DNA of 60,118 bases from Bacteroidota bacterium (lineage in GTDB: Bacteria; Bacteroidota; Bacteroidia; Flavobacteriales_D; Sanyastnellaceae), in NCBI GenBank assembly GCA_027619225.1, contig JAQCFW010000014.1:1-60118 (forward strand). Direction: 5' to 3'. Within the stretch, counting starts at the first letter, position 1, and each line of letters opens with the position of its first letter. The notes beneath the pieces are model-generated. The model saw only the letters and a program-made list of their open reading frames with translations. It had not been told where the DNA came from and made no database searches. This document shows positions 1 through 14,825 of the stretch, one piece after another. The translations under genes were made by a program, and so were the position numbers.

Positions 1-275
1 CATTTTAATGAATGTTTCGCAAAGCTCAATTCCCGCAATTTTTTGAGGACTGCGTCATCTGGGAATAACGTTAAATCTCTTAGGAAATCATCAAATTGAA
101 TAAAAAAACTCACCTTATCGTCTGTAGAACCTCCATTTGGAAAAGGTTTAAATTCCTCTGAAAACAATTTTTTTTTGGCGACAATTGATTTGATTTTTAA
201 TTCCTCAATTTGCTGTTTATACAAAATGACATCTGCATCATATTGTACTTTTATCTCAATTGGTAACTCAATCAT
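1..275 (-). CDS. Hypothetical protein, 3' end beyond window
   Basis: An open frame runs leftwards from an ATG at 275-273 to the window edge (91 codons) without a stop. The ATG overlaps the TGA stop of the upstream integrase gene by an ATGA junction, so the two are probably translationally coupled. The visible product is charged and begins MIELPIEIKVQYDADVILYK. The start looks helical or coiled-coil, with a run of four lysines near residue 36. I do not recognise the family. It should be an accessory gene of the integrase-bearing element, and its length is unknown. Confidence 0.55.
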   Translation of the reverse strand, partial: MIELPIEIKVQYDADVILYKQQIEELKIKSIVAKKKLFSEEFKPFPNGGSTDDKVSFFIQFDDFLRDLTLFPDDAVLKKLRELSFAKHSLK

Positions 276-1390
276 AATTCAAGATCAATTTGGTTCGCTG
301 CATTTACCTTCGTTTCTGTTAATACTTTAGCATATATCATTGTTGTTTGTATGTTTTTATGCCCCAGCATTTTAGAAACAGTAAAGATATCTACGCCTTT
401 ATTTAGCAGTAAGGTTGCGTATGTGTGGCGAAAATTATGAAGTGTAATTTTTTTGTTTATGCCCGCTCTCAAAACCCATCTTTTTATTTTGTCATTATTG
501 CTATCAGAATACTTTAGTCCTTCAAACACTTTTTCTATAGGCTTACCCTTTTCGCCAAGCACCTTAACAGCAGTTTCACTTATAGGGTGCATAATTACGT
601 CATCGGTTTTCTTTTGGAAAATATGAAGAAAATAACTGCTTTTAGTTTTTTGAATATCTCCCCAAGTTAAATTTTTAATATCTGACCATCTTAAACCCGT
701 CAATGCTGAAAAAATAGCCACATTTTTTAATGCATCCAAATCACATTCTGTTTTAGCTAAAAGTTGCAATTCTTCTTGCGTTAAAAACTCGCGCTTTGTT
801 TCTTTTTCCTTAATCCCTTTTATATGTCGCAAAGGATTTTCGTTTATTAACCGAGCATCAAACGCTTCGTTAATCGCACAACGAAATTTATTGAAGTAAC
901 TCACAGCTGAGTTTTGAGATAATTTTAATCCCTTAACTGTATTTAAGCGGTTAGCGTGTAAAAGGTATTTTTTATAAGCACTACAAAACCCCTCTGTTAA
1001 ATCGCCCATCTTACAGTTCTCGCCAGTATAGGCTTTGAGGTATTTTAATGCACTAAGCCAATTGCCATAAGTACCATCAGTCTCTTTGCGATTATCACAT
1101 AAGCTTTGAAAAAACTCAATAAAATCTCGCTTCTTGTTTTTAGTGTTAAAAAGACCATCTTGCTCATTTAGAATCTCTTTTTCCCTTCTGTTCTTAAGTC
1201 CTTCGGCAAAAACCAAATTTTCTTTGTTATGAAGTTTTTGTTGCGCAGTTTTTGGTTTTTCATATATATATCGTTTAAGATATTCCCTACGAGTATATGT
1301 GCCCTTCTCTCCTTTTACCGGTGGGTAAAAGTCTAAGTACAAACTCTCTTTACCATTTGCAATTTGCTTTTTTCTTAAATGAACCCCCAT
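272..1390 (-). CDS. Tyrosine recombinase (phage-type integrase)
   Basis: This 372-residue protein is a site-specific recombinase of the Bacteroidetes mobile-element type. The N-terminal part (about 1-100) resembles an arm-DNA-binding domain. It is followed by a SAM-like core-binding domain (about 100-200) and the catalytic domain. The active-site set is visible: Arg in TGLRWSDI, H318-x-x-R321 in HNFRHTYATLL, H344 in LGHKN, and nucleophile Y353 in MIYAKV. Length and domain order are complete, so it is probably active. It is preceded by a small HTH gene and by a copy of the mnmE tail sequence about 590 bp upstream. The nearby repeats suggest that it inserts elements at the 3' end of mnmE. The catalytic class is seen in the sequence; the target specificity is inferred. 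Confidence 0.93.
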   Translation of the reverse strand: MGVHLRKKQIANGKESLYLDFYPPVKGEKGTYTRREYLKRYIYEKPKTAQQKLHNKENLVFAEGLKNRREKEILNEQDGLFNTKNKKRDFIEFFQSLCDNRKETDGTYGNWLSALKYLKAYTGENCKMGDLTEGFCSAYKKYLLHANRLNTVKGLKLSQNSAVSYFNKFRCAINEAFDARLINENPLRHIKGIKEKETKREFLTQEELQLLAKTECDLDALKNVAIFSALTGLRWSDIKNLTWGDIQKTKSSYFLHIFQKKTDDVIMHPISETAVKVLGEKGKPIEKVFEGLKYSDSNNDKIKRWVLRAGINKKITLHNFRHTYATLLLNKGVDIFTVSKMLGHKNIQTTMIYAKVLTETKVNAANQIDLEL

Positions 1391-1393
1391 TTT

Positions 1394-1747
1394 CTATTTT
1401 ATTAAATAGTTTATTACTTCTTTTTTTATTATCACTTTACCTCCAAGTTTTGAAGGTGTAATTGTTTTGTTTTTTATATATCGATACAAACTCATTCTGC
1501 TAATACCAAGAAGCAAACACGTTTCTTTAATACTTAAAAATTCCTTTGACTGAATTAACTCCATATCAATACCAACTGATTTTAAATATTCTTGGTCCTG
1601 TGCTTTTTTAACTTTCTCATTCTTTTTGATATGTTTGTATGACTTTCCCGAACATTTTTTAGAGCAAAATTTTGTAACTGTTGTTTTTGCTATAAAACCA
1701 TTATTACATTGTATACAAATTTTGGGTATCGTTATTTTACTGCTCAT
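1394..1747 (-). CDS. Zinc-finger-like plus helix-turn-helix protein (possible excisionase)
   Basis: This is a 117-residue basic protein. The first 35 residues carry CIQC and FCSKKC, a four-cysteine zinc-ribbon-like knuckle. Residues about 65-117 form a MerR/excisionase-like helix-turn-helix (SIKETCLLLGISRMSLYRYI) with the following wing and the closing VINYLIK. Domains of this kind (HTH_17) occur in recombination directionality factors and element regulators. It ends 4 bp before the integrase start, so the two are co-transcribed. A role in excision or in controlling the integrase is inferred from family and position. A plain transcriptional regulator is the alternative. Confidence 0.75.
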   Translation of the reverse strand: MSSKITIPKICIQCNNGFIAKTTVTKFCSKKCSGKSYKHIKKNEKVKKAQDQEYLKSVGIDMELIQSKEFLSIKETCLLLGISRMSLYRYIKNKTITPSKLGGKVIIKKEVINYLIK

Positions 1748-1800
1748 TTATGTAACATTTTATAATATGTTGTAACATGATGTATCAAAGTGTAAATGCT

Positions 1801-1861
1801 AGATACAATTTTATTAAATTAATTGTACCTCATCACTTCAAGGTACATCAAAGATACAATT
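1801..1861. repeat. Direct repeat pair AGATACAATT (possible integrase arm sites)
   Basis: Two identical 10-base copies lie at 1801-1810 and 1852-1861, 51 bp apart (about five helical turns). Both contain the GATACA string that also sits in the core site at 1991-1996. They lie between the integrase operon and the core repeat. The repeat is seen directly; the binding role is a guess. Confidence 0.4.
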
Positions 1862-1981: not shown

Positions 1982-1999
1982 TTACTTTCCGATACAGAA
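1982..1999 (-). repeat. mnmE-tail attachment core, copy 1
   Basis: Read on the minus strand this is TTCTGTATCGGAAAGTAA. It differs from the end of the resident mnmE at two positions only, both synonymous, so it still encodes F-C-I-G-K-stop. The inverted arms ACTTTC (1984-1989) and GAAAGT (1997-2002) flank a 7-base centre CGATACA, the layout of a tyrosine recombinase crossover site. Being the copy nearest the integrase, with the best symmetry, it is the best candidate for the element's own attP-derived half. Confidence 0.75.
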
Positions 2000-2060
2000 A
2001 GTGATTAAATGTTTGTCGATATAATGAGCCAAGCAAAAAAATAAATACAGAAAACGATAC

Positions 2061-3221
2061 TTAAATTTCATAATTAACCATTGATTTCCAGCTAATCAAT
2101 TTCCCATTATTTCTAAGCTGATTTTCTTGCCCTCCGTAAATAACAAAAGATTTTACGGGATCATTTTCGGATATTTTATTCCAATAATCTAACCCATTAA
2201 AGTAATCACTCCTTTTAGTGCTACCTGATTTTATTTCTATCGGTGTAATAAATTCTCCATCGTCAATTATTAAGTCAATTTCTTTGCCTTTATTATCTCT
2301 CCAAAAATAAAGATTAGGTTCTTTTCCTATATGAAGATGTCGCTTCATTAGTTCCCCAATTACTAAATTTTCAAATATTGCTCCTTTGGCGAAGTGGATT
2401 TTAATTTGTGAGGATTTTTTAATACCTAATAAATAAGATAATAATCCTGTATCATAAAAATACAGTTTAGGCATCTTAGTTAATCTTTTGTTGTAATTTT
2501 TATGGTGAGAGTATAACCGAAACACTATGTAGCTGGTCTCTAAAATATTTACCCATGATTTTATAGTATTAACTGATACGCCTGCTTCATTTGATAGCTC
2601 CGACATGTTTAACAATTGTCCGGCTCGCCCTGCACAAAGTTTTAAAAAGGTTGTAAATGTATTTAGATTACCAACTTGGCTTAACTGGCGCACATCTCTT
2701 TCAACATACGTTTGAAGGTAGTTAGGGTAGAAATCTTCTGGATCAATGTTTTGGTCAAAAATTCTAGGATAAAATCCTTTATAAGCTACATCTTCAAAGG
2801 TTTCAGATAAGGAGTTCGCGGCCTTTAATTCGAACATACTAAAAGGCAGTAATTTTAGAATACCAACTCTTCCTGCAAGACTTTGACTTATCTGTTCTGA
2901 TAACAAGAAGTTTTGAGACCCAGAGAGTATAAATTTAATTGATGGATCAGCATCGACAAGTCCCTGTATATATGAAAAAAGTTGTGGCACTCTTTGTACT
3001 TCATCAAATATTGCCCCTTTTGGATAGTTATTTAAAAATCCCCTCGGATCTTCTAGTGCAAACGCTCTGTCATCAGGGTTCTCCAAGGATACATACGGTA
3101 AGTTTTTAAAAACTTCTTTAATCAAAGTAGTCTTACCAGATTGCCGAGGGCCTGTTATTGATATTACTGGGAATTTCGTGTATAAGAGCTTAAGCTTATT
3201 TTCTAGTGTTCTTGCTATCAT
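2061..3221 (-). CDS. AAA ATPase with C-terminal DUF4143 (nuclease-like fold)
   Basis: This 386-residue protein has a Walker A motif GPRQSGKTT (residues 24-32), a Walker B with D73-E74 (AIFDEVQ) and a sensor-like FILSGSQN, typical of the AAA_14 family. The C-terminal third is a DUF4143 domain with KEIDLIID followed by PIEIKSG. These match the D and ExK pattern of the PD-(D/E)XK nuclease fold. The family is widespread and its biochemical role is poorly known. It stands alone between two att-like repeats and is AT-rich compared with the core genes to the right. The frame is intact. Confidence 0.85.
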   Translation of the reverse strand: MIARTLENKLKLLYTKFPVISITGPRQSGKTTLIKEVFKNLPYVSLENPDDRAFALEDPRGFLNNYPKGAIFDEVQRVPQLFSYIQGLVDADPSIKFILSGSQNFLLSEQISQSLAGRVGILKLLPFSMFELKAANSLSETFEDVAYKGFYPRIFDQNIDPEDFYPNYLQTYVERDVRQLSQVGNLNTFTTFLKLCAGRAGQLLNMSELSNEAGVSVNTIKSWVNILETSYIVFRLYSHHKNYNKRLTKMPKLYFYDTGLLSYLLGIKKSSQIKIHFAKGAIFENLVIGELMKRHLHIGKEPNLYFWRDNKGKEIDLIIDDGEFITPIEIKSGSTKRSDYFNGLDYWNKISENDPVKSFVIYGGQENQLRNNGKLISWKSMVNYEI

Positions 3222-3493
3222 ACCTTAAAGGTACAATATTGCAATCTAATTTCAAAATAGTACTATTTCCCGATACAGAAAGTGACTTATAGAATGTAGT
3301 GTTAAAAATATTTATTTTTTGTTGGACCAAAAACAAGTCAGAGTTCATATTATTTTTTGGGATTAAATCTTTGACTGCTGATAAGCTCTACTCCTACACA
3401 CTTTCTGCTAGAAATCGTTTTATTTTATATATATTACAGAATATTACTGCACAATTAATGATAAGCTTGTTGCCAAAAATTAAATGACTTACA
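3222..3493. other. Intergenic region with att core, upstream of the pyrimidine cassette
   Basis: These 272 AT-rich bases separate the divergently transcribed ATPase gene and the pyrimidine cassette and contain att core copy 2. The cassette promoter should be between 3290 and 3480, but I see no convincing TTG/TANNTTTG pair. A 62-codon frame at 3299-3487 has low-complexity hydrophobic content and no recognisable family, and I do not treat it as a gene. Confidence 0.45.
3263..3280 (-). repeat. mnmE-tail attachment core, copy 2
   Basis: The minus strand reads TTCTGTATCGGGAAATAG, identical to the end of mnmE except that the stop is TAG instead of TAA. It still encodes F-C-I-G-K-stop. The exact match with the mnmE copy covers 17 bases (3265-3281 against 13379-13395). 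On the other side the match with copy 1 continues through GAAAGTGA. It therefore looks like a hybrid junction between two inserted units. Confidence 0.75.
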
Positions 3494-4960
3494 ATGGAGA
3501 CTAAAGAGAAACGGAATGAGGTGAAAAACTTCATCAACGGAAAATTTGTGCGAAATGGACAGAAGCCATTGAACGTGGAGAGTCCAATTGACGGTGCGAT
3601 TGTTTCAACGCTTCCACTTTCAACTTACGCTGATGTAGATCAAGCTGTTCAAGCAGCATCTAAAGCATATAAAACCTGGTCAGCTACAACCATAAAAGAG
3701 CGCTCCCAAATATTTTTTAAGTATAGGTCTTTGCTTGAAACCCACATGCATGAGTTGACCCAACTCAATGTCCTTGAAAACGGAAAAACCTATGGTGAAT
3801 CAAAAGCTGAAGTTGAAAAAAGCATGGAATTATGTGAATTTGCAGTTTCGTTGCCCCAAATTGTAAATAATGAAGTTCAAGAAGTAAGCTCCGGTGTGGA
3901 ATGTCGTACCGAACGACGACCTATTGGAGTTGTCGCGTCGATTGCACCTTTTAATTTTCCAATTATGGTTCCTCACTGGACGATGCCAAATGCATTAATG
4001 CTAGGAAATACAATGGTTATGAAACCGTCCGAACTTGTTCCATTAAGCGTGGTTCGTATCGCTGAATTGTTAAAAGAAGCTGGACTTCCTGATGGTGTTT
4101 TTAATGTTGTAAACGGTGGAAAAGAAGTTGTAGAATCAATTTGCGATCATCCTGGAATCAAAGCTGTTTCGTTTGTTGGATCTACGAATGTGGCCAAAAT
4201 TGTATACAAACGTGCGACTTCAAACCTGAAGCGATGCGTTGCTTTAGGTGGAGCAAAAAATCACCTCATCGTGTTGCCAGATGCACATTTAGATATGACC
4301 GCTTCAAATGTAGTTGCCTCTATGTCGGGCTGCGCAGGACAGCGATGCATGGCAGCTTCGGTCATGGTGGGTGTTGATAAGGTGCAGCACATTATCGATA
4401 AGATGGTTGAAGAAGCAAAAAAGATCGTACCAGGTGAGAATCTTGGTTCAGTGATTAGTGCCGCAGCCAAAGAACGAATTGAGGGTTATATCACAGCTGC
4501 TGAAAAGGCTGGGGCGACTATTCTCCTTGATGGTCGTGGAGCCAAAGTTGCGGGTAAAGAAGGTGGATATTACGTCGGACCCACCATTATTGATCACGTT
4601 ACTCTAGAAATGAGTGTTGCGTCTGAAGAAATTTTCGGTCCAGTGATCTCAATAATTCGCGCAAAAGATTTAGATGAGGCGATAGACATTGAAAACAGTT
4701 CAAACTATGGAAATGCAGCTGCAGTCTTTACACAAAGTGGTGGACTCGCAAAACAGGTCATAGAACGTGCAAGTGCGGGAATGATCGGAGTTAATATTGG
4801 TGTCCCAGTTCCGAGAGAGCCGTTTTCATTTGGAGGCTGGAATGAATCCAAATTTGGCGTCTGTGACATTACTGGCAGAAGTTCGGTCGAATTCTGGACG
4901 CAAAATAAAAAGACCACAATCAAATGGAATCCAGAGGCTCAGACGAACTGGATGAGCTAA
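3494..4960 (+). CDS. mmsA: CoA-acylating (methyl)malonate-semialdehyde dehydrogenase
   Basis: This 488-residue member of the aldehyde dehydrogenase superfamily, MmsA/IolA branch, oxidises malonate or methylmalonate semialdehyde with NAD+ and CoA to acetyl-CoA or propionyl-CoA and CO2. The cofactor region contains APFNFPIMVPHWTMPNAL. The catalytic cysteine is C285 in GQRCMAAS, next to the family-typical GGAKNH. The length is normal. It is the first gene of the cassette and would catalyse its last step, using the semialdehyde produced by the adjacent aminotransferase. The ATG at 3494 fits the conserved N-terminus (NFINGKFV). No strong ribosome-binding site is visible, as usual in this phylum. 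Confidence 0.92.
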   Translation: METKEKRNEVKNFINGKFVRNGQKPLNVESPIDGAIVSTLPLSTYADVDQAVQAASKAYKTWSATTIKERSQIFFKYRSLLETHMHELTQLNVLENGKTYGESKAEVEKSMELCEFAVSLPQIVNNEVQEVSSGVECRTERRPIGVVASIAPFNFPIMVPHWTMPNALMLGNTMVMKPSELVPLSVVRIAELLKEAGLPDGVFNVVNGGKEVVESICDHPGIKAVSFVGSTNVAKIVYKRATSNLKRCVALGGAKNHLIVLPDAHLDMTASNVVASMSGCAGQRCMAASVMVGVDKVQHIIDKMVEEAKKIVPGENLGSVISAAAKERIEGYITAAEKAGATILLDGRGAKVAGKEGGYYVGPTIIDHVTLEMSVASEEIFGPVISIIRAKDLDEAIDIENSSNYGNAAAVFTQSGGLAKQVIERASAGMIGVNIGVPVPREPFSFGGWNESKFGVCDITGRSSVEFWTQNKKTTIKWNPEAQTNWMS

Positions 4961-4985
4961 TTACTAATGTTATTTTTATAAAATC

Positions 4986-6341
4986 ATGAGTGAGTTGAAC
5001 ACAGCGTCAAAGGAGGTGATTCAGAATAATTTGGATTACACTCTATTTTCATGGTCTAAGCAGGCTGGTTTGGACCCCATTCACGCTGAACGAGCTGAAG
5101 GAGTATATATCTACACAGCAGATGGATCTAAAATTATAGATTTTTCATCACAGTTAATGAATGTGAATATTGGTCACGGAAATCAACGCATCACAAAAGC
5201 TGTTTCAGATCAAATGGAAAAACTATCATATGTCTATCCTGGAATGGCAACTGAAATCCGAGGTAAACTTGGAAAAAAACTCAAGGAAATTACACCGGGA
5301 AACCTAAGCAAGGCATTTTTTACTGTATCGGGCGCTGAAGGTATAGAAAATGCAATAAAATTGGCCAGAATTTATACGGGTCGGCATACGATCATATCCC
5401 ATTATCGTTCTTATCATGGCGCTACCAATGGTGCAATGTCTGCTGGAGGTGATCCGCGCAGGTTTCCAATGAATGTTACTGTTGCACCTCATTTTGTGCA
5501 TGTTGAAAATCCATACGCTTATCGTTGCCCTTGGGGGACTGGATCACTTGAAGAGTGTGGAGAAATGGCATTGGCTCAACTAGAGCGAGTCATCAAATTT
5601 GAAAATCCAAATAGCGTTGCTGCAATTCTTTTTGAAGGTGAATCGGGATCATCTGGATGCATAAAATATCCACCAAATTATTGGAAAAAGTTGCGCATTA
5701 TAGCGGATAAATATGGGATTCTCCTCATCGATGATGAAGTCATGAGCGGTTTTGGAAGAACAGGTAAAATGTTTGGCATTGACCATCATGATACGACTCC
5801 AGACATCATGGTTCTGGCAAAAGGCCTCACTTCAGCCTACATTCCATTTGGAGCCATGATGGTGAGCGATAAGATTGCCAAACATTTCGATGATATCCCC
5901 TTGGCACTTGGTCTGACTTGTTCAGCCCACCCGGTCGCCTGTGCTGCGGCACTCGAAAACATTCGTGTAATAGAAGAAGATCACCTGGTGGAAAATGCCG
6001 CAAAAATGGGCGAATATATGGAACAAGAGGTCGCAAAATTGATGGAGAAACATCCTTCGATTGGAGATTTTAGAAATACAGGGTTATTTGGTTGCATCGA
6101 GCTGGTTAAAGATCGTGTGACAAAAGAACCGGTTACGCCGTGGAACGCTTCACCTGGTGAAATGGAGCCAACGTTGCGTATGGCTTCAAAAATGAAAGAA
6201 CTCGGCATGTTCACCTTTGTCCGTTGGAATTGGATTTTTATTGCGCCACCATTAATAATTACGAAAGAACAGATTGACGAAGGATTGAATATTGTATCAC
6301 AAGTAATTGAAATAGCCGACGAATATTACACAGGATCATGA
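4986..6341 (+). CDS. Class III aminotransferase (likely beta-alanine aminotransferase)
   Basis: This 451-residue PLP enzyme belongs to the omega-amino-acid aminotransferase group. It has the DDEVMSGFGRTG motif, with the Asp that contacts the PLP ring nitrogen, and the Schiff-base lysine at about 278 in VLAKGLTSAY. The substrate is not readable from the sequence. Its place between MmsA and the pyrimidine enzymes indicates beta-alanine (from uracil) or beta-aminoisobutyrate (from thymine), giving the semialdehyde used by MmsA. Related enzymes act on taurine or other omega-amines, which is the alternative. It overlaps the next gene by 4 bp (ATGA), so translation is likely coupled to the transporter. 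Confidence 0.85.
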   Translation: MSELNTASKEVIQNNLDYTLFSWSKQAGLDPIHAERAEGVYIYTADGSKIIDFSSQLMNVNIGHGNQRITKAVSDQMEKLSYVYPGMATEIRGKLGKKLKEITPGNLSKAFFTVSGAEGIENAIKLARIYTGRHTIISHYRSYHGATNGAMSAGGDPRRFPMNVTVAPHFVHVENPYAYRCPWGTGSLEECGEMALAQLERVIKFENPNSVAAILFEGESGSSGCIKYPPNYWKKLRIIADKYGILLIDDEVMSGFGRTGKMFGIDHHDTTPDIMVLAKGLTSAYIPFGAMMVSDKIAKHFDDIPLALGLTCSAHPVACAAALENIRVIEEDHLVENAAKMGEYMEQEVAKLMEKHPSIGDFRNTGLFGCIELVKDRVTKEPVTPWNASPGEMEPTLRMASKMKELGMFTFVRWNWIFIAPPLIITKEQIDEGLNIVSQVIEIADEYYTGS

Positions 6342-8068
6342 TTGAAGAAGAGATTGTTGAACTAACTGAAGACTTGTCTGCATCATCACTTTACAGTGAA
6401 GATTTAGCTCCGGTACCCAAGAATATGCGCACTTGGACTAAATGGAGTTTGGCAGCACTTTGGGTGGGTATGGCAGTCTGCATCCCCACTTATCTGCTTG
6501 CATCTTACATGATGAAAGATGGAATGGGATGGCTTGAATCGCTAATTATAATTGGTATTGCCAACCTCCTTATCACGATTCCAATGGTTTTAAATGGTCA
6601 TGCCGGCGTAAAGTATGGGGTGCCATTTCCGGTACTTGGAAGATCTTCATTTGGAACCAAAGGCGTTCATCTTGCTTCTGTATCCCGAGGTATAGTTGCT
6701 TGCGGTTGGTTTGGAATTCAAACGTGGATTGGCGGAATGGCCATTTACGAAATTATCTATGCCTTCAGTGAAGGTTCAACTCCCATGGATTTGAACTGGC
6801 TCATGTTTGTCTGCTTCGGCGTCTTTTGGTTTATGAATATGTACTTTATATGGAAGGGTACCGACAGCATTAAATGGCTAGAAGAATATTCTGCACCCAT
6901 CCTCATCCTCATGGGCGTTGTACTCATAGGTTGGGGTGCATATTACGGGGGTGGATTCGGTGTTGTGCTTGATCAAAGCCGCCAATTACAGAAAGCTACG
7001 TTAGAAGTCTCTTCGGCAGAAGATTCCTATGTTATAACACTGAATGGTATTGCCGACAAAAATGGCAAAACCAAAGCAAATATGTACGCCCACAAAAGGG
7101 TGACAGAGACGGGTTCTGAGATGATAGAATACAACGCCTTCCCAGAAAATGGAACCATTTCAATTCCAAAACGCGTCGCAAATAATGAAACGGGGAGCAT
7201 TCAATTAATCTACAAAACAGATACTGAGCTTATCGAGTCCAGTTGGACTCCAATCATTCTAGATGCGGCTCCTAAACAAGCTTCAAACAAACTGTGGCAG
7301 TATATCAAATGGTTAACGGTCATGCTTGGGTTTTGGGCAACCATGTCTTTGAGTATTTCTGATATTACGCGGTATTCCCCTTCTCAGAAAGCACAGAAGC
7401 AAGGTCAATTCATCGGTCTTCCTGGAACGATGATGCTTTATTCTTTCGTCTCTATTTTCGTAACCTGTGCGTCTGTTCTTATTTTCAAGGATGTCCTCAT
7501 CGCGGCCGATGCCCCTTGGGACCCCACAACACTTCTAGGCAAATTCGACAATCCATGGGTCGTAATCACAGCACAAATATTCATGATCATTGCTACTTTG
7601 AGCACAAATATTGCCGCGAATGTTATCGCTCCCTCCAATGCATTCTCAAACGTATACCCAAAGAAAATTAGCTTCAAAATGGGCGGGACTATCACTGGTA
7701 TTCTGGGAATACTTATTTGTCCATGGTGGTTGATGAATGATATCGCAGGAATTCTTATTCTTGTCAGCGGTTTCCTTGGTCCTGTCCTGGCAATTATGCT
7801 TTGCGATTATTTCTTTGTCCGCCAAAAGCGTTTGAAATTGGCAGAATTATACAAGTCCGAGGGTGAATATAGCTACTCAGGAGGATTCAATATGAACGCA
7901 ATTGTGAGCCTCGCAATGGGTGTTGGAGGCGCATTGATTTGGTATTTGGTTCCCTCCTTGACATATTTGTCAAATCTAGCATGGTTCACAGGGTTTATCA
8001 TCTCATTTATAGTCTATTATATGCTCATGCGCAAATACATAGAGCCGAAATCACGTTTACAACACTAA
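6338..8068 (+). CDS. NCS1-family nucleobase transporter with inserted domain
   Basis: This 576-residue inner-membrane permease belongs to the nucleobase:cation symporter-1 (uracil/cytosine/allantoin/hydantoin) family. The family motif PFPVLGRSSFG is at about residue 95, and the TM6 motif GFWATMSLSISDITRY follows at about 328-345. Between TM5 (ending near 205) and TM6 there are about 100 hydrophilic residues (roughly 215-318). They alternate beta-like stretches such as SYVITLNGIAD and SIQLIYKTDTEL. Family members are usually about 490 residues, so this is an insertion. By the LeuT-fold topology the loop faces the periplasm. It probably imports uracil, thymine or dihydropyrimidines for the downstream enzymes. 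Confidence 0.88.
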   Translation: MIEEEIVELTEDLSASSLYSEDLAPVPKNMRTWTKWSLAALWVGMAVCIPTYLLASYMMKDGMGWLESLIIIGIANLLITIPMVLNGHAGVKYGVPFPVLGRSSFGTKGVHLASVSRGIVACGWFGIQTWIGGMAIYEIIYAFSEGSTPMDLNWLMFVCFGVFWFMNMYFIWKGTDSIKWLEEYSAPILILMGVVLIGWGAYYGGGFGVVLDQSRQLQKATLEVSSAEDSYVITLNGIADKNGKTKANMYAHKRVTETGSEMIEYNAFPENGTISIPKRVANNETGSIQLIYKTDTELIESSWTPIILDAAPKQASNKLWQYIKWLTVMLGFWATMSLSISDITRYSPSQKAQKQGQFIGLPGTMMLYSFVSIFVTCASVLIFKDVLIAADAPWDPTTLLGKFDNPWVVITAQIFMIIATLSTNIAANVIAPSNAFSNVYPKKISFKMGGTITGILGILICPWWLMNDIAGILILVSGFLGPVLAIMLCDYFFVRQKRLKLAELYKSEGEYSYSGGFNMNAIVSLAMGVGGALIWYLVPSLTYLSNLAWFTGFIISFIVYYMLMRKYIEPKSRLQH

Positions 8069-8069
8069 G

Positions 8070-9449
8070 ATGTCAATACTCATTAAAAACGGTCGAGTTG
8101 TTACCGCTGCAGAAGATTTCATCGCAGATATTTATATCGAAGGTGAAGAGATTGTCGCAATTGGCAGGAACTTAGACTACCCAGTAGATAAAATAATTGA
8201 CGCAACTGACAAGCTTGTTTTTCCTGGTGGGATTGATCCTCACGTTCATTTAGACATGCCGTTTATGGGGACGTATTCTAGCGATGATTACGAGACCGGA
8301 ACAAGAGCCGCACTCCATGGTGGAACAACATCCGTGATCGAGTTTATCCTCCAAACCCAAGGCGACACTTTGCACAATGCACTCAAAGAATGGCAGGCTA
8401 AGTCCTTGCACAAAGCCGTGGGAGATTTCTCTTACCACATGGCCGTCACTGACTTCAACGATGATGTCGCAAAGGAAGTTGTGCAAATGATAGAGGAAGA
8501 AGGAATCACCTCCTTCAAAACATTTATGGCATACAAAGGGGCATTAATGATTGACGATGGCCAGATGGTGCAATTGATGAAAGTTGTCAAGGAGCATGGC
8601 GGACTTGTGACTGTTCATGCAACAAATGGTGACATGATTGACTCACTGATCAGTAAAAATCTCTCGGAAGGAAATACAAAACCTATTTACCATTACTTGT
8701 CCCAGCCAGAAGTCACCGAAGCAGAAGCATCCGCTCGCTTTACTGACATGCTATATTACACTGGTTGTCCGGGTTACATTGTTCATATGACATGTGAGGG
8801 AGCTCTTAATGCTGTCCGAACAGCGACCATGCGGAACCAGAAAGTTTTTGTTGAGACTTGTACTCAATACCTCATGCTCGATGCATCTCTTTACGAGCGA
8901 GAGGATGGCGCAAAATGGGTCATGAGTCCTCCGCTTCGTGAGAAAAAAGACCAAGACGCCCTTTGGGTTGGAATTAATCAAGGTTTAATCCAAGTCGTCG
9001 GAACAGATCACTGCCCCTTCACGCTTGAACAAAAAGCCTCAGGAAAAGACAACTTTGCAAAAATCCCAAATGGTCATCCCGCAATCGAGCACAGAATCGA
9101 ATTTATGTATTCAGAAGGTGTACGAAAAGGTAAAATTTCGCTGAATAAATTTGTAGAAGTGACCTCAACGAATGCTGCAAAAATATTCGGAATGTATCCT
9201 AAAAAAGGTACTATAGCCATTGGGTCAGATGCTGATTTGGTCATTTTCGACCCCTCAAAACAGCATACTATTTCCGCAGACACCCATCACATGAATTGTG
9301 ATTACTCTGGATATGAGGGTAGGAAAGTGATAGGAAAGACAGAGATTGTTCTCTTAAGGGGAAAGGTCGCTATTGAAGATGAAAAATGTCATTTGAAAGC
9401 GGGCGACGGGAAGTTTATTCCGAGAGGCAAAACATCACTCATTATTTAA
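8070..9449 (+). CDS. hydA: Dihydropyrimidinase
   Basis: This 459-residue amidohydrolase opens the ring of dihydrouracil or dihydrothymine to N-carbamoyl-beta-alanine or its methyl analogue. It carries the binuclear metal signature: HxH in GGIDPHVHLDMP, the carbamylated lysine in TSFKTFMAYKG, histidines in TVHATNGD and YIVHMTCEG, and the Asp in VVGTDHCPF. The length is normal for the family, and the motifs separate it from allantoinase and dihydroorotase. It starts one base after the transporter stop. Hydantoinase activity is a possible side function, but the preTA and ureidopropionase neighbours fix the likely substrate. Confidence 0.95.
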   Translation: MSILIKNGRVVTAAEDFIADIYIEGEEIVAIGRNLDYPVDKIIDATDKLVFPGGIDPHVHLDMPFMGTYSSDDYETGTRAALHGGTTSVIEFILQTQGDTLHNALKEWQAKSLHKAVGDFSYHMAVTDFNDDVAKEVVQMIEEEGITSFKTFMAYKGALMIDDGQMVQLMKVVKEHGGLVTVHATNGDMIDSLISKNLSEGNTKPIYHYLSQPEVTEAEASARFTDMLYYTGCPGYIVHMTCEGALNAVRTATMRNQKVFVETCTQYLMLDASLYEREDGAKWVMSPPLREKKDQDALWVGINQGLIQVVGTDHCPFTLEQKASGKDNFAKIPNGHPAIEHRIEFMYSEGVRKGKISLNKFVEVTSTNAAKIFGMYPKKGTIAIGSDADLVIFDPSKQHTISADTHHMNCDYSGYEGRKVIGKTEIVLLRGKVAIEDEKCHLKAGDGKFIPRGKTSLII

Positions 9450-9467
9450 ATTAAGCTTATTGAAGAT

Positions 9468-10334
9468 ATGTCAAGAAAAGTAAAATCAGGATTAATCCAA
9501 ATGAGTCTTCCAATGACTGAAGGCGAAGGGACGATACAGGAAATATGTAGCGCGATGTACGACAAACACATTCCGTACATTGAAGAAGCAGGAAAACAAG
9601 GAGTTCAGATCCTTTGTCTACAAGAAGTCTTCAACACCCCCTATTTCTGCCCTGGACAAGATAGTAAATGGTATGAATCAGCGGAGGCCGTCCCAGGACC
9701 GACGACTGAAAAGCTACAAGTAATTGCTAAGAAATACGACATGGTAATTGTTGCTTCGTTGTACGAGAAAGAGCAAGCCGGAATTTTATATAACACTTCT
9801 GCAGTCATTGACGCCGATGGCACTTATTTAGGAAAATACCGCAAGAATCACATCCCTCACACGAGTGGGTTTTGGGAGAAATTTTTCTTTAAACCTGGAA
9901 ACTTGGGATATCCTGTTTTTCAAACCAAATACGCTAAAGTTGGTGTCTACATCTGTTATGACCGTCACTTCCCTGAGGGTGCTCGTGCTCTTGGCTTGAA
10001 TGGCGCTGAAATTGTATACAACCCTTCTGCAACTGTAGCTGGATTAAGCGAATATCTTTGGAAACTTGAACAACCGGCACATGCTGCAGCAAATGGGTAT
10101 TTCATGGGCTGTATCAATAGAGTCGGTGAAGAAAAACCATGGAATCTAGGTAAATTTTACGGTCAGTCATACTTTGTAGATCCACGTGGACAAATCTTTG
10201 CGGAAGCATCAAGAGATAACGACGAATTACTCGTCGCCGAATTTGATTTGGACCTCATCGAGGAGGTGAGATCTACTTGGCAATTCTACAGAGATCGTCG
10301 TCCTGAAACCTACGGTGATTTGACAAAACTCTGA
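9468..10334 (+). CDS. Beta-ureidopropionase (N-carbamoyl-beta-alanine amidohydrolase)
   Basis: This 288-residue nitrilase-superfamily enzyme releases beta-alanine, CO2 and ammonia from N-carbamoyl-beta-alanine. The catalytic triad is in place: Glu in CLQEVFNTPYF, Lys in LGKYRKNHIPH and Cys in VYICYDRHFPEG. HIPH followed by FWEKFFFKPGN resembles the carbamoyl-amidase branch, which also includes N-carbamoylputrescine amidase. Putrescine-type activity is therefore the alternative, but the operon points to pyrimidine breakdown. It follows dihydropyrimidinase by 18 bp. Confidence 0.9.
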   Translation: MSRKVKSGLIQMSLPMTEGEGTIQEICSAMYDKHIPYIEEAGKQGVQILCLQEVFNTPYFCPGQDSKWYESAEAVPGPTTEKLQVIAKKYDMVIVASLYEKEQAGILYNTSAVIDADGTYLGKYRKNHIPHTSGFWEKFFFKPGNLGYPVFQTKYAKVGVYICYDRHFPEGARALGLNGAEIVYNPSATVAGLSEYLWKLEQPAHAAANGYFMGCINRVGEEKPWNLGKFYGQSYFVDPRGQIFAEASRDNDELLVAEFDLDLIEEVRSTWQFYRDRRPETYGDLTKL

Positions 10335-10370
10335 TTAAGACAACATTCATATACTAGAATAATTCGACGC

Positions 10371-11717
10371 ATGGCTGAATACAAACGACCTGAAAATGAA
10401 CAGGAGTTCAAGGAGAATTTCAAACAGAAAAAACCCTTGATGAATGATACTCAAGCACACATCGAAAGTTCTCGGTGTCTGTTTTGCTATGATGCTCCTT
10501 GCATGAATGCTTGCCCTACCGGCATAGACATCCCGCTGTTCATTAAGCAAATCAATACAGGAAACAAGCAGGGCGCCGCAAAGACAATTTACGATTCAAA
10601 TTGGATGGGTAATGCTTGCGGTACAATTTGTCCAACTGAAGTTCTATGTGAAGGAGCGTGTGTCTATAATGAACAAGACGCTCCTCCTATACTCATCGGT
10701 CGACTGCAAAATCACGCAACCATTTCCGTCATCAAATCTGGCAAACAACTTTATTTTCCAGGAGAAGACAATGGCAAAAGGGTCGCCATTATTGGTGCGG
10801 GACCTGCAGGAATTTCTTGTGCCTGTGAATTGAGAACTTTGGGATATAGTGTGGACATCTTCGAAGCAAAGGCTCAGCCATCTGGATTAACAGTCCATGG
10901 TGTCGCGCCCTATAAGATTTCAAATGAAGAAGTGATGGCCGAGATGGACTACTTACAAAATCAACTCGGATATAACATCCTTTACAATCATCCCATTTCT
11001 ACGAAAGAAGATCTAAAGAAATTAGAGTCGGATTACTCCGCAATATTTATCGGTGTGGGGCTAGGTAAAACGGCAAATCTTCAGATGACTGGTGAAAATC
11101 TACTAGGAGTTCACGGGGCGGTTGAATTTATTGAAGAACTACGCAGCAAGCATTCTGAAGTGAAAATTGCACAGAAAGTTGTCGTGATAGGTGGGGGGAA
11201 TACAGCCATGGATGCCGCCTCAGAATCTGCTAGACTGGGTGCTGAAGAAGTGACTTTGGCATATCGAAGAGGAAAAGAAAGCATGGGCGCTTATGATTTT
11301 GAATACGATTTGGCAGTGAGCGCTGGCGTGAAAGGATTGTTTAACGCCTCACCTGTTGAGATCATCGGTGGTGAGAGAGTGGAAGGAGTTCGCTTTGTAA
11401 AAACAGAAATTGTGAACGGAAGACTCACGAACATTGAAGGGTCAGAGTTTACTGTTGCTTGTGATATGGTGATTAAGGCTACCGGCCAAGCCAAGCAAGG
11501 CAAACTCCTGCGTTTAATTGACAAGTTAACGTTAGATGAAAAGACACGAATTGTGGTTAATTCAGACACAAATCAAACAACTAACCCGATGTATTTCGCG
11601 GGTGGAGATGCCATTAATGGAGGGGCTGAAGTTGTGAACGGCGCCTATGATGGCAAACTTGCCGCCAATGGTATTCACCAATGGATCACAGACAACCAAA
11701 GACAACCAAAGACATGA
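10371..11717 (+). CDS. preT: NAD-dependent dihydropyrimidine dehydrogenase, subunit PreT
   Basis: This 448-residue flavoprotein subunit takes electrons from NAD(P)H and passes them to PreA for reduction of uracil or thymine. The N-terminal region has iron-sulfur cysteines (CLFCYDAPCMNACPTG, then GNACGTICPTEVLCEGAC). An FAD-binding GxGxxG follows at VAIIGAGPAGISCACEL and an NAD-binding GGGNTAMDAASES further on. The order matches GltD/PreT proteins. It overlaps preA by the ATGA at 11714-11717. A perfect tandem duplication of a 10-mer (11691-11710) forms its last codons, giving the ending TDNQRQPKT. Confidence 0.93.
   Translation: MAEYKRPENEQEFKENFKQKKPLMNDTQAHIESSRCLFCYDAPCMNACPTGIDIPLFIKQINTGNKQGAAKTIYDSNWMGNACGTICPTEVLCEGACVYNEQDAPPILIGRLQNHATISVIKSGKQLYFPGEDNGKRVAIIGAGPAGISCACELRTLGYSVDIFEAKAQPSGLTVHGVAPYKISNEEVMAEMDYLQNQLGYNILYNHPISTKEDLKKLESDYSAIFIGVGLGKTANLQMTGENLLGVHGAVEFIEELRSKHSEVKIAQKVVVIGGGNTAMDAASESARLGAEEVTLAYRRGKESMGAYDFEYDLAVSAGVKGLFNASPVEIIGGERVEGVRFVKTEIVNGRLTNIEGSEFTVACDMVIKATGQAKQGKLLRLIDKLTLDEKTRIVVNSDTNQTTNPMYFAGGDAINGGAEVVNGAYDGKLAANGIHQWITDNQRQPKT
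11691..11710 (+). repeat. Two tandem copies of GACAACCAAA
   Basis: A perfect 10-base tandem duplication followed by GAC ends directly before the preA ATG. Ten bases is not a multiple of three, so copy-number change by slippage would shift the preT reading frame and alter its overlap with preA. Confidence 0.8.
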
Positions 11718-13093
11718 GCAAGAAAGATAAGATTGATTTATCCGTAAATTTTGCGGGAATTAAGGCTCCAAACCCTTTTTGGTTGGCTTCTGCACCTCCG
11801 ACTAATTCAGGTTATCAAATCATGAAAGCCTTTGATGCTGGATGGGGTGGTGCTGTTTGGAAAACATTGGGAATGCCTACGATTAATGTTTCAAGCCGCT
11901 ATGGTTCAACCAACTACGGAAACTCCCGAATGGCTGGGTTTAGCAACATTGAGTTAATTACTGATCGACCTTTGGAAGACAACCTTCGCGAAATGGCAGA
12001 GGTGAAAAAACATTTCCCAGATCACGCTGTGATTGCCTCTCTCATGGTGGACACACGCCAAGAATGGGAAGATATTATCAAGCAAGTAGAAGATGCCGGT
12101 GCGGATGGTATAGAGCTGAATTTTGGATGTCCGCATGGAATGTGCGAGCGAGGAATGGGGTCAGCCGTTGGACAAGAGCCCGAAGTATTAAAAACGATTG
12201 TTGAATGGGTAAAGCAAGCGGCGACTGTTCCCGTGATCACAAAATTATCACCGAACATCACGCACATTACGGATCCAGGACTGGCTGCCGTACATGGAAA
12301 AACAGATGCGATTTCATTGATTAATACAGTGAAAAGTATTGTTGGGATTGACTTAGAGACATACGCTCCCTATCCTATTGTAGATGGGAAAGGAACGAAC
12401 GGTGGCTATTGCGGTCCTGCGGTGAAACCCATCGCTTTGCATATGTTGAAAGACTTGATGCAGCATCCAGAAATTTCAAACACCCCAATTAGTGGAATTG
12501 GTGGTATTGAAACGTGGCGTGACGTTGTTGAGTTTATTCTTCTGGGCGCTACTTCCGTTCAAGTTTGTACGGCTGTGATGCACTACGGATTTGGGATTGT
12601 GCGAGAGATGGAAGCGGGATTGATTGATTTCATGGAAAATAAGGGCTATACAACGATTTATGATTTTGCTGGGAAAGCCCTGCCAAACGTAACAGAGTGG
12701 AAACATTTGAACCTAAAAAGTGAAGTAAGAGCAAAAATAAATGAGGATAAGTGCATTGGATGTGATCTGTGTTACATCGCATGTGATGACGGCGCCCACC
12801 AGGCAATTGCGCTGCCAACAGATGGAAGCCGTATCCCTTTAATCATTGAAGAGAACTGCGTTGGTTGTAATTTATGCTCACTTGTTTGCCCTGTTGAAGA
12901 GTGTATCACGATGGAGAAGTTTGACGATGGGAAAGAGCACGAAACTTGGCACGAATTAACTGAGCAAAATCGAATTCCTAATACATGGAATGATGATCGT
13001 GCAGGAGGTAAAGGACATTATGTTCCCGAACCCACCGAGGCATTAAAGCACAAACGCAAAGATAAATCTGGGATTAATAACAAAGCAATGTGA
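11714..13093 (+). CDS. preA: NAD-dependent dihydropyrimidine dehydrogenase, subunit PreA
   Basis: This protein has a dihydroorotate-dehydrogenase-like FMN barrel (about 1-330) followed by a ferredoxin domain with two 4Fe-4S motifs, CIGCDLCYIAC and CVGCNLCSLVC. The barrel contains KAPNPFWLASAPP at the start and the catalytic-loop region NFGCPHGMCERGMG, whose cysteines match dihydropyrimidine dehydrogenases. The longest frame begins at 11681, but the ATG at 11714 forms the ATGA overlap with preT and starts MSKKDKIDLSV, as homologues do. I therefore use it (459 residues). With PreT it reduces uracil or thymine, the first step of the pathway. Confidence 0.93.
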   Translation: MSKKDKIDLSVNFAGIKAPNPFWLASAPPTNSGYQIMKAFDAGWGGAVWKTLGMPTINVSSRYGSTNYGNSRMAGFSNIELITDRPLEDNLREMAEVKKHFPDHAVIASLMVDTRQEWEDIIKQVEDAGADGIELNFGCPHGMCERGMGSAVGQEPEVLKTIVEWVKQAATVPVITKLSPNITHITDPGLAAVHGKTDAISLINTVKSIVGIDLETYAPYPIVDGKGTNGGYCGPAVKPIALHMLKDLMQHPEISNTPISGIGGIETWRDVVEFILLGATSVQVCTAVMHYGFGIVREMEAGLIDFMENKGYTTIYDFAGKALPNVTEWKHLNLKSEVRAKINEDKCIGCDLCYIACDDGAHQAIALPTDGSRIPLIIEENCVGCNLCSLVCPVEECITMEKFDDGKEHETWHELTEQNRIPNTWNDDRAGGKGHYVPEPTEALKHKRKDKSGINNKAM

Positions 13094-13324
13094 GAGCAAT
13101 GGGAAAATTCAGGGGTAACTAATTTTAGTGGTTTCACAGGCTTGCCTGGCGGCTGCCATGTTTCAAGCGGTTTCTTTAATAATGGAGAATTCGGAAGTTG
13201 GTGGTCGTCCTCAGTGTCCTGATCCAACTCGTGGATGCATAAGCTAATCAGCTACACCGACATTGCATACCGCTACAACAACGATCGGAGCAGCGGCTTT
13301 TCTGCTCGTTGCGTCCGGGATTAA
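13094..13324 (+). pseudogene. Remnant of a FISUMP (Fibrobacter major paralogous domain) protein
   Basis: The plus frame of 13118 reads TNFSGFTGLPGGCHVSSGFF, then NNGEFGSWWSSSVS, an in-frame TGA at 13220-13222, and after it ISYTDIAYRYNNDRSSGF and SARCVRD before TAA at 13322. GLPGG, GSWWSSS, RYNNDRSSGFS and RCVRD are the hallmark end of the FISUMP domain of secreted Bacteroidetes and Fibrobacteres proteins. The start is missing and the internal stop breaks it, so this is a decayed C-terminal fragment. It sits directly after preA and beside the island end, probably the scar of an earlier insertion or deletion. Confidence 0.8.
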
Positions 13325-13376
13325 AAATTTAAATTATAGCGACGCAGTCGTGCGTTTGTAAATCACGAGCCGTACT

Positions 13377-13394
13377 TTATTTCCCGATACAGAA
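13377..13394 (-). repeat. mnmE-tail attachment core, copy 3 (inside mnmE)
   Basis: These are the final 18 bases of mnmE, TTCTGTATCGGGAAATAA on the minus strand, encoding F-C-I-G-K-stop. ATTTC and GAAAT form short inverted arms around CCGATACA. This is the chromosomal junction of the island. SGI1-type islands in Proteobacteria are known to use the same part of trmE/mnmE. Confidence 0.75.
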
Positions 13395-14753
13395 ATGGGA
13401 AAAGATATGTCCTAGGATATCATCTGCATGGACGGCTCCCGTGATCGCACCTAAATGATGTAAAGACTCTCTAACGTCGATGGATACGAGGTCGGAGGGG
13501 AGGTCGCTAGACAGCCCGGTTTGAACTGCCAACAATGACTTCTCTGCTAAAACGAGCGCTTCAAAATGTCTTTCGTTCGTTACCACTAAAGAGGAAGTCG
13601 AGGCTTCGAGTCCGTGAGAAGAGGAGAGCACATCTCGAAGTTCTGCAATTCCTTCTCCCTTGGAGGCAGAGATTTCTAACGTACGGGATGCGGCATCTAC
13701 TTTTTTACACACTTTTTCACTCAAGTCACACTTGTTCCAAACCGCGATTACAACAATTCCCTCTGGAAGATTCAAATCCGCGATGTCTTGAGATGCCTGT
13801 GTCGCTGATTCACAAGAGGCGTCAAGAAGGTAGAGTACTGAATGTGCGCTTTCTGCTTTTTTTAGGGCGCGTCGGATTCCTTCAGTTTCTATTTCATCCT
13901 CGGTATTGCGAAGTCCGGCGGTGTCGATGAATCGAAAGAGAGTTCCGTCGATAACGCAGGTGTCTTCGATGATATCTCGGGTTGTTCCGGCGATATCTGA
14001 GACGATGGCTTTGTCGTCACCTAAAAGAACGTTGAGCAATGTGGATTTTCCTGAGTTGGGGGCGCCGAGAATGGCAACAGGAACGCCTGATTTTATAGCG
14101 TTTCCGTCTCGGAAAGAAGCGGCAAGGGACGAGACTCGAGAAAGGAGATCGTTTAACAAATCGTTGAAGCGAGCTCGGTCCGCGAATTCTACGTCTTCTT
14201 CAGAGAAATCGAGCTCCAGCTCGAGGAGTCCGGCGAACCCAATTAAGGCTTCGCGCAAAGCGCCGATTTCGCGAGAGAACCCACCCCTCAGTTGTGAGAT
14301 CGCAAGTCTATGGGCGCCTCGATGTTCGGAGGCGATGAGATCGGCTACGGCTTCAGCCTGGGTGAGGTCGAGGCGTCCATTTAGGAAGGCTCGCTGCGTG
14401 AACTCGCCAGGTCCGGCAAGTCGACATCCTGCAATAACGAGGAGGCGAACGACTTCTGCCTGGATGAACCTTGAGCCATGGATATTTAATTCTACCGTAT
14501 CCTCGCCCGTGTATGAACCAGGTCCGCAAAGAACCAGGGCGAGCCCTTCGTCAATTGTTTCTCGTGGCTCGGATTCGGACAGGATGCGACCGAAAACGAC
14601 CTTTCGATCTGAATCGCAGGTGAGCGTTTTCGAAAATACGGCGCTGGAGAGCTCTAAAGCACGGGGCCCAGAAACACGAACTACGGCGATTCCTCCGGCT
14701 CCGGGAGCTGTAGAGATAGCGACAATCGTTGAGCCATCTAAGGCCTTGGGCAT
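13377..14753 (-). CDS. mnmE: tRNA modification GTPase MnmE (TrmE)
   Basis: This 458-residue GTPase works with MnmG to make (c)mnm5U34 in the wobble position of certain tRNAs. It has the N-terminal folate-binding domain (ISTAPGAGGIAVVRVSGP), a helical domain, an inserted G domain with GAPNSGKSTLLN, DIAGTTRD, DTAGLR and NKCD, and the C-terminal FCIGK that holds the essential cysteine. The longest frame starts at 14786; the ATG at 14753 gives the conserved MPKALDGSTIVAIS start and is preferred. Its last 18 bases are the attachment core repeated at 3263 and 1982. The gene remains complete despite the insertion. Confidence 0.96.
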   Translation of the reverse strand: MPKALDGSTIVAISTAPGAGGIAVVRVSGPRALELSSAVFSKTLTCDSDRKVVFGRILSESEPRETIDEGLALVLCGPGSYTGEDTVELNIHGSRFIQAEVVRLLVIAGCRLAGPGEFTQRAFLNGRLDLTQAEAVADLIASEHRGAHRLAISQLRGGFSREIGALREALIGFAGLLELELDFSEEDVEFADRARFNDLLNDLLSRVSSLAASFRDGNAIKSGVPVAILGAPNSGKSTLLNVLLGDDKAIVSDIAGTTRDIIEDTCVIDGTLFRFIDTAGLRNTEDEIETEGIRRALKKAESAHSVLYLLDASCESATQASQDIADLNLPEGIVVIAVWNKCDLSEKVCKKVDAASRTLEISASKGEGIAELRDVLSSSHGLEASTSSLVVTNERHFEALVLAEKSLLAVQTGLSSDLPSDLVSIDVRESLHHLGAITGAVHADDILGHIFSHFCIGK

Positions 14754-14825
14754 AGTGTTTTTCACGCGGTAATAATTACTGTGCAAAAGTGGGGTAAAAA
14801 ATGGGAGGATAGATGTGGTTTGGTC

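Follow-up and report, generated by a model that had tools for sequence, protein, structure and literature searches.

Probable tandem stacking of site-specific insertions at the mnmE 3' end in a member of the Bacteroidota, with a tyrosine integrase and integrase-less units

Tandem units with and without a recombinase, stacked at the end of a host gene, are known from the composite staphylococcal cassette chromosome (SCC) islands at rlmH/orfX of Staphylococcus, whose recombinases are serine recombinases. At the 3' end of mnmE (trmE/thdF), islands of the Salmonella genomic island 1 (SGI1) type in Proteobacteria form tandem arrays of two to six (PMC2297512, available sections), and tandem integration has been documented for the trmE islands of Vibrio and Proteus (PMC7449626, available sections). 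Tandem structures derived from integrative and conjugative elements (ICEs) and integrative mobilizable elements (IMEs) are reviewed under the concept of accretion in the accessible part of PMC5704250. Here, we describe a locus of this kind at mnmE in a draft genome of the family Sanyastnellaceae (Bacteroidota), on contig JAQCFW010000014.1 of assembly GCA_027619225.1, all 60,118 bases of which were analyzed (the window, or contig C1). We consider it highly probable that the locus is a tandem array of site-specific insertions made at the mnmE 3' end by a Bacteroidota tyrosine integrase, with integrase-less units left in place. A preliminary description of the window, which had pointed to the use of the same gene end by SGI1-type islands, proposed such an array, and the repeats, the linkage of the integrase to the site, a further copy and empty sites in relatives all agree with it.

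Unlike in SCC, the recombinase linked to this array is a tyrosine integrase and not a Ccr serine recombinase. With the gammaproteobacterial SGI1/trmE islands the locus shares the target, an 18-bp site, a proposed 7-bp overlap, the tandem arrangement, and a cargo of restriction-modification and anti-phage genes, as far as these are set out in the available sections of PMC2297512 and PMC7449626. However, it lies in the Bacteroidota, its integrase has Arm-DNA-bind_5 and SAM_5 domains, its units are unlike one another, and most of those scanned are integrase-less. As in the accretion of cis-mobilizable elements (CIMEs) with ICEs and IMEs (PMC5704250, accessible part), integrase-less elements bounded by att sites are stacked with an integrase-bearing one at a gene end, but here a single-gene unit is tightly bounded by the core, the target is mnmE, and the host belongs to the Bacteroidota. 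Among the Bacteroidota IMEs and the NBU and CTnDOT elements, a similar backbone (integrase, helix-turn-helix [HTH] protein, AAA ATPase, DUF6371 protein, and mobilization protein) occurs on plasmid NZ_CP032820.1, with an integrase 37% identical to ours. Yet the Bacteroidetes IMEs use other integration sites, according to the accessible part of PMC5704250, and no relaxase was recognized in the mnmE elements scanned.

The window is a complete contig of a 2.03-Mb draft genome in 49 contigs, so that its left edge is a contig end. A full-length MnmE is encoded at 13377-14786 on the minus strand (Pfam MnmE_helical, reaching residue 466 of 469, TrmE_N, and MMR_HSR1), and the 3' end of this host gene, ending in HFCIGK-stop, would be the integration site. 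The pattern TTYTGYATHGGNAARTAR, which encodes FCIGK-stop, matches the window three times, all on the minus strand, at 13377-13394 (copy 1), 3263-3280 (copy 2), and 1982-1999 (copy 3), and gave no match in 100 shuffled window sequences; both these same-orientation copies and the differences among them (GGG/GGA, AAA/AAG, and TAA/TAG) are as first described. A search of the whole genome added one match beyond the window (copy 4, TTTTGTATCGGTAAGTAG), at 432-449 on the plus strand of contig C4, 432 bp from the start of that contig, while the reversed pattern gave none. Copy 1 consists of the last six codons of mnmE itself, the proximal (attL-type) junction, and is the only copy translated as an MnmE end. 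In copies 2 to 4 the shared stretch extends three bases further left, where ACT stands before TTY and mnmE has CAT, so that the three have ACTTTYTGTAT in common; they correspond to (T/C)ACTTTYTGTATCGGNAARTAR, and the matching bases of mnmE are CATTTC. To judge by these letters, copies 2 to 4 are attR-type junctions rather than duplicated mnmE ends. Copy 2 (ACTTTCTGTATCGGGAAATAG, 3263-3283, minus strand) separates segments A and B, and copy 3 (ACTTTC-TGTATCG-GAAAGTAA, 1982-2002, minus strand) separates segment B from element C; no MnmE frame reads into either. Copy 3 forms a perfect inverted repeat, ACTTTC-TGTATCG-GAAAGT, with 6-bp arms and a 7-bp center.

The preliminary description had also supposed that coding constraint keeps all the copies alike. 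This had to be abandoned, because the distal site is decayed in the close relative G006 and the right half of the core differs in G005 and G017; the conserved part of the copies is better explained as a recombinase core.

Adjoining copy 3, at the left end of the array, lies the Bacteroidota-type tyrosine integrase that had been predicted there (272-1390, minus strand; Pfam Arm-DNA-bind_5, Phage_int_SAM_5, and Phage_integrase). Its residues R234, K261, H318, R321, H344, and Y353, which we take to be the six catalytic residues, are kept in all 30 homologues at mnmE sites, apart from gaps in one truncated row. Beside it is the gene of a small HTH_17 protein (1394-1747, minus strand; Pfam), probably an excisionase or directionality factor. 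The next open reading frame (ORF) of element C (1-271, minus strand) is cut by the contig end and was recognized by its DNA match to a related element (L103), which covers window positions 37-1860 at 72% and extends into the gene after the integrase. Seven proteins of L103 and three of another related element (L070) included no recognizable relaxase, element C itself being cut by the contig end. In a further related mnmE element (L102, 16905-21116), the gene after the backbone encodes an RND efflux pump (ACR_tran), either fused with or adjoining an outer-membrane efflux domain (OEP).

The integrase family is linked to this site well beyond the genome analyzed. A search of 100 genomes at E≤1e-40 gave 11 homologues, each immediately behind an FCIGK-stop copy, eight of them behind mnmE itself and three (our own, that of G081 at a contig start, and that of G094 on its contig C9) behind a copy with no mnmE in the stretch fetched. 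G094 has two integrases of the family, one behind mnmE and one behind FCIGK-stop elsewhere (L097 and L101; contigs C1 and C9). The order mnmE, FCIGK-stop, HTH gene, integrase is shared by eight of the nine close named relatives (59-79% identity), and the ninth is cut by a contig start; an HTH homologue is present between the mnmE end and the integrase in all eight that reach the mnmE end. A scan of 296 genomes of the phylum gave 51 integrase matches at E≤1e-35 (our own included), and of the 29 other loci fetched (21 matches lie outside this set), 11 are at an FCIGK-stop site, all scoring about 227 bits or more. In a tree of 65 rows, all 30 integrases adjacent to FCIGK-stop fall within one clade of 44 rows (support 99/93), with 7 label changes versus 21.7 for shuffled labels, the truncated L105 being counted as off-site. 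Three off-site integrases (L190-L192) are adjacent to the dnaK 3' end (the product matches Pfam HSP70 in L190, and its C-terminal letters agree in all three); their position within the clade of the mnmE integrases suggests a switch of target gene, because they lie behind dnaK and not behind mnmE. No tRNA target was found in the 14 of the 18 off-site loci that were scanned.

A phage origin was considered and rejected, since a search of viral_contigs with the integrase gave only eight distant partial matches (25-49% identity). Among the records labeled "phages," the best matches are unannotated fecal scaffolds, one of which holds mnmE. This record (L218; MT837961.1, fecal, deposited as "Bacteriophage sp.") has at 2862-5671 an mnmE ending in FCIGK-stop with a related integrase 0.2 kb behind it; it is probably chromosomal, and gut bacteria also seem to use the mnmE site.

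Two further expectations of the preliminary description, another copy to the left of the window and empty sites in related genomes, proved correct. Copy 4 has the orientation and synteny expected beyond the left end of the window: orientation is kept going leftwards from mnmE through C1 into C4, and trhO (UPF0176/rhodanese by Pfam) starts 41 bp after the copy. The contig of G005 that holds mnmE also has, starting 17 kb further on, a region with the acyltransferase gene fabD that is collinear with positions ca. 1.6 to 14 kb of our C4 and has the expected orientation; no trhO was detected in the sequence of G005 that was read. The joining of C1 and C4 is likely on this evidence. Three genomes of the same genus have mnmE directly before trhO, with a spacing of 37 bp (G003), 143 bp (G008), and 267 bp (G012), and lack both the integrase (at E≤1e-40) and the searched genes of A and B. 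The preliminary description would have been refuted by integrase-free relatives carrying the same repeats and genes in the absence of any empty site, and these three genomes show otherwise. In G006, whose MnmE is the most similar to ours among those compared (93.6% identity), mnmE and trhO are 1.1 kb apart, and the interval contains neither A, B, nor C. It does retain the sequence preceding copy 4 (92.6% over 244 bp) with a decayed core, which suggests that an older element end predates the split of the two lineages.

Junctions of the same type were found in other members of the order. The attR pattern ACTTTYTGTATYGGNAARTRR gave 26 matches in 24 of 399 genomes (our own included, the richest with three) and none with the control. 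Comparison with six MnmE sequences found no MnmE reading into any of the 26, although the upstream sequence is shorter than 350 bp in five (5 bp in one), which makes the test weak for these; with that restriction, the matches are not the mnmE ends of other genomes. Of 100 genomes, 9 (our own included) have a contig with two or more FCIGK-stop copies, 0.8-21 kb apart and always in the same orientation, while a control with 7 matches in these genomes predicts about 0.1 chance pairs. Seven of the 114 genomes of the family (our own included; control 0) have a right-end arm, TTTGTACCT, at a distance of 34-35 bp ahead of the core. Our own genome has it at copy 4 and G019 at the distal end of its integrase-bearing element; in G051 and G190 it stands at the ends of units without an integrase (0.8 and 2.4 kb, respectively), and G001, G011, and G017 have it as well. 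By eye, genes of secreted-looking proteins with dockerin-like calcium-binding repeats stand before attR in our own genome, G011, and G017 (L005 [C4] 1-162, L048 1-760, and L084 10057-11671); the two L084 proteins scanned have no Pfam match.

Segment B (2000-3262) is a one-gene cassette of 1.26 kb without integrase. Its single ORF (2061-3221, minus strand) encodes an AAA_14/DUF4143 ATPase (Pfam) of the PADLOC candidate defense family PDC-S01 (PDLC04790, E=5.5e-97). Window positions 1992-3271 match G005 at 94.5% DNA identity, and the alignment ends inside both cores, with its limits immediately behind TTCTGTATC of copy 2 and at TTCTGTAT of copy 3. The neighbors differ in G005, with a transposase-like ORF sequence on one side and other DNA on the opposite side, so that homology ends in the cores as a crossover inside the core predicts. 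The ATPases of the pair are 94.8% identical and the MnmE proteins 78.8%, and at E≤1e-140 the gene occurs in only these two of the 114 family genomes. Like a CIME, B has att sites at both ends and neither integrase nor transfer genes.

Segment A carries an operon for reductive pyrimidine catabolism (3494-13093, plus strand), with genes for an aldehyde dehydrogenase, a class III aminotransferase, an NCS1 permease, dihydropyrimidinase, a beta-ureidopropionase-like hydrolase, PreT, and PreA, six of them assigned by Pfam and PreA by its DHO_dh and 4Fe-4S domains. It has no integrase, its genes are metabolic, and its left boundary is rearranged. The dihydropyrimidinase was detected in 3 of 60 genomes including our own; the other 13 members of the genus, several with incomplete genomes, gave no match. 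The preA gene was found in 3 of 114 family genomes, our own, G190 (96% identity), and G029 (79%). G190 belongs to another genus and its MnmE is only 60.5% identical to ours, versus 96% for preA; its preA lies in an mnmE array behind an mnmE-tail attR, in the order mnmE, Fib_succ_major gene, attR with arms, Rep-like relic (by eye), deaminase, and preA. In G078, the pyrimidine operon is on a different contig from mnmE. These comparisons establish a horizontal origin of both A and B. The G+C content is 31% in element C, 33% in B, and 43% in A, against 51% in mnmE and 42% in the rest of the window.

Segment A is composite and not one clean insertion, because the part next to mnmE (about 13094-13360, plus strand) is what remains of a broken surface-protein gene of the Fib_succ_major (FISUMP) kind, with the stop-interrupted frame FSGFTGLPGG ... 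SSGFSARCVRD. In G004, the DNA immediately after mnmE (L040 1167-1434) matches this relic at 74%; G006 has a 36-bp match (L044 9601-9636), and G190 has a full gene behind mnmE (L167 11753-13861; PF09603, E=2.3e-52). Such genes or relics thus recur directly behind mnmE in our own genome, G004, G006 (36 bp only), and G190. Since the order in the window matches that of G190 with one attR missing, A probably represents two units fused by deletion.

Other units at the site include AbiEi/AbiEii in G064, an IetA-like ATPase with a subtilase in G243, type IIG restriction-modification in G019 and type I in G005, an HTH and a ParE-like protein in G078 (the latter below its cut-off), and, by eye, metabolic genes in G182. 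In 14 core-to-core intervals scanned, an integrase is present in two (G019 and G005) and absent from 12; the scan left out G025 (20 kb, integrase present) and G017 (far site with another right half).

The array probably formed as follows. The integrase and its HTH partner would recognize a core of ca. 20 bp, located where mnmE encodes FCIGK-stop, and recombination between this core and the same core on a circular element, with the crossover in TGTATC, would leave MnmE intact and place an attR-type copy at the far end. Every copy would then be a new target for integration. A Fib_succ_major unit (now a relic), the pyrimidine-catabolism unit, the single-gene ATPase cassette, and the integrase-bearing element would have been stacked in this way between mnmE and trhO, the order of insertion being conjectural. 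Serial integration of this kind, followed by loss of integrase genes from the units, fits the evidence and corresponds to accretion. A and B may be complete elements minus their integrase or units moved in trans by an integrase.

Several observations weigh against this explanation. No circular junction was observed, and the joining of C1 and C4 is based on synteny and not on reads. The second copies in G025, G064, G078, and G081 have no ACTTT left half and are possibly another subtype or, above all in the 20-kb pair of G025, chance; the contig of G081 showed no mnmE. Four of the nine array genomes (G049, G051, G064, and G078) lack this integrase family at E≤1e-40, and 18 of the 29 phylum-wide integrase loci are off the FCIGK-stop site, five of them with scores (238-266 bits) as high as those of integrases at the site. 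No TTTGTACCT arm precedes copy 2 at the end of A or copy 3 at the end of B, and therefore the resident integrase may not act on these ends; these missing arms and the four array genomes without the integrase call for caution about traffic in trans. The DUF6371 gene of related elements was not found in our genome, so that element C may be incomplete or partly in an assembly gap; a 60-residue query for the rest of the element gave no match, which is uninformative as it had no positive control.

That the repeats reflect a segmental duplication of the mnmE end or an assembly artifact is hardly credible. They are short and near-identical, and the genome is a draft of 49 contigs, but the attR pattern recurs across the order, empty sites exist, and the boundaries of B are found in a second species. 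Duplication was rejected, because copies 2 to 4 share a left half, with ACT before TTY, that mnmE does not have. Two versions of insertion at mnmE deserve more attention. We find it reasonably probable that only accretion and decay took place, complete integrase-bearing elements having arrived and later lost their integrase and transfer genes to become passive remnants (CIMEs), without any traffic of cassettes in trans. This is the usual route to tandem structures according to the accessible part of PMC5704250, the Fib_succ_major relic makes decay real, four array genomes lack the integrase, and the relic between attR and the preA cargo of G190 resembles, by eye, a Rep-like ORF of L041 (itself a weak REP_ORF2-G2P match below the cut-off). 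Segment B fits this less well, being nearly all gene, with homology that ends inside both cores and no leftover element DNA. So do the 12 of 14 intervals (0.6-10 kb) without an integrase homologue, although draft contigs favor short intervals and bias this count, and in three of the 12 (G064, G078, and G081) the far copy is without ACTTT.

The other version, which we regard as rather unlikely, is a system acting in trans in the manner of an integron, in which circular cassettes that have the mnmE-tail core but no integrase would be cut out and inserted by the integrase of element C or by those of visiting elements, new cargo entering beside the resident integrase element. The core-to-core boundaries of B speak for it, as do the right-end arm shared by the integrase-less units of G051 and G190 with the integrase-bearing element of G019 and the several units of one or two genes, some of them defense or toxin-antitoxin-like. 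However, no circles or movement were seen, the right ends of A and B have no arm, and in no genome other than ours was an integrase seen to follow several cassettes as a stable platform. It is likewise doubtful that such capture operates throughout the Bacteroidota, with mnmE-specific integrases stacking circles of one to a few genes in trans behind mnmE. The accompanying idea, that defense, toxin-antitoxin, catabolic, and secreted-protein genes would travel as cassettes that each bring a synonymous replacement of the gene end, we offer only tentatively.

The preliminary description had named no earlier array of this kind in Bacteroidetes with a Bacteroidetes-type integrase. We found no mnmE array described in Bacteroidota in the literature searched, by titles and the beginnings of abstracts, a scope outside which lie most subscription journals and preprints; but tandem islands at mnmE/trmE were already known in Gammaproteobacteria, so the array is, within that scope, new for the Bacteroidota and not in kind. 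The novelty, on the same basis, lies in a counterpart from the Bacteroidota that has an integrase family of its own, and in the tightly bounded single-gene unit. The parallel with the trmE islands of another phylum is probably due to the highly conserved FCIGK end. For the Bacteroidota, the mnmE end becomes a concrete, searchable insertion hotspot, defined by a 21-bp attR pattern with no control match in 399 genomes, and an integrase family is tied to this site in several classes and families. Since its units include AbiE, an IetA-like ATPase with a subtilase, type I and IIG restriction-modification, and a PDC-S01 candidate, the mnmE end could be mined for defense genes, and the existence of trans-mobilized single-gene cassettes outside integrons becomes a testable question.

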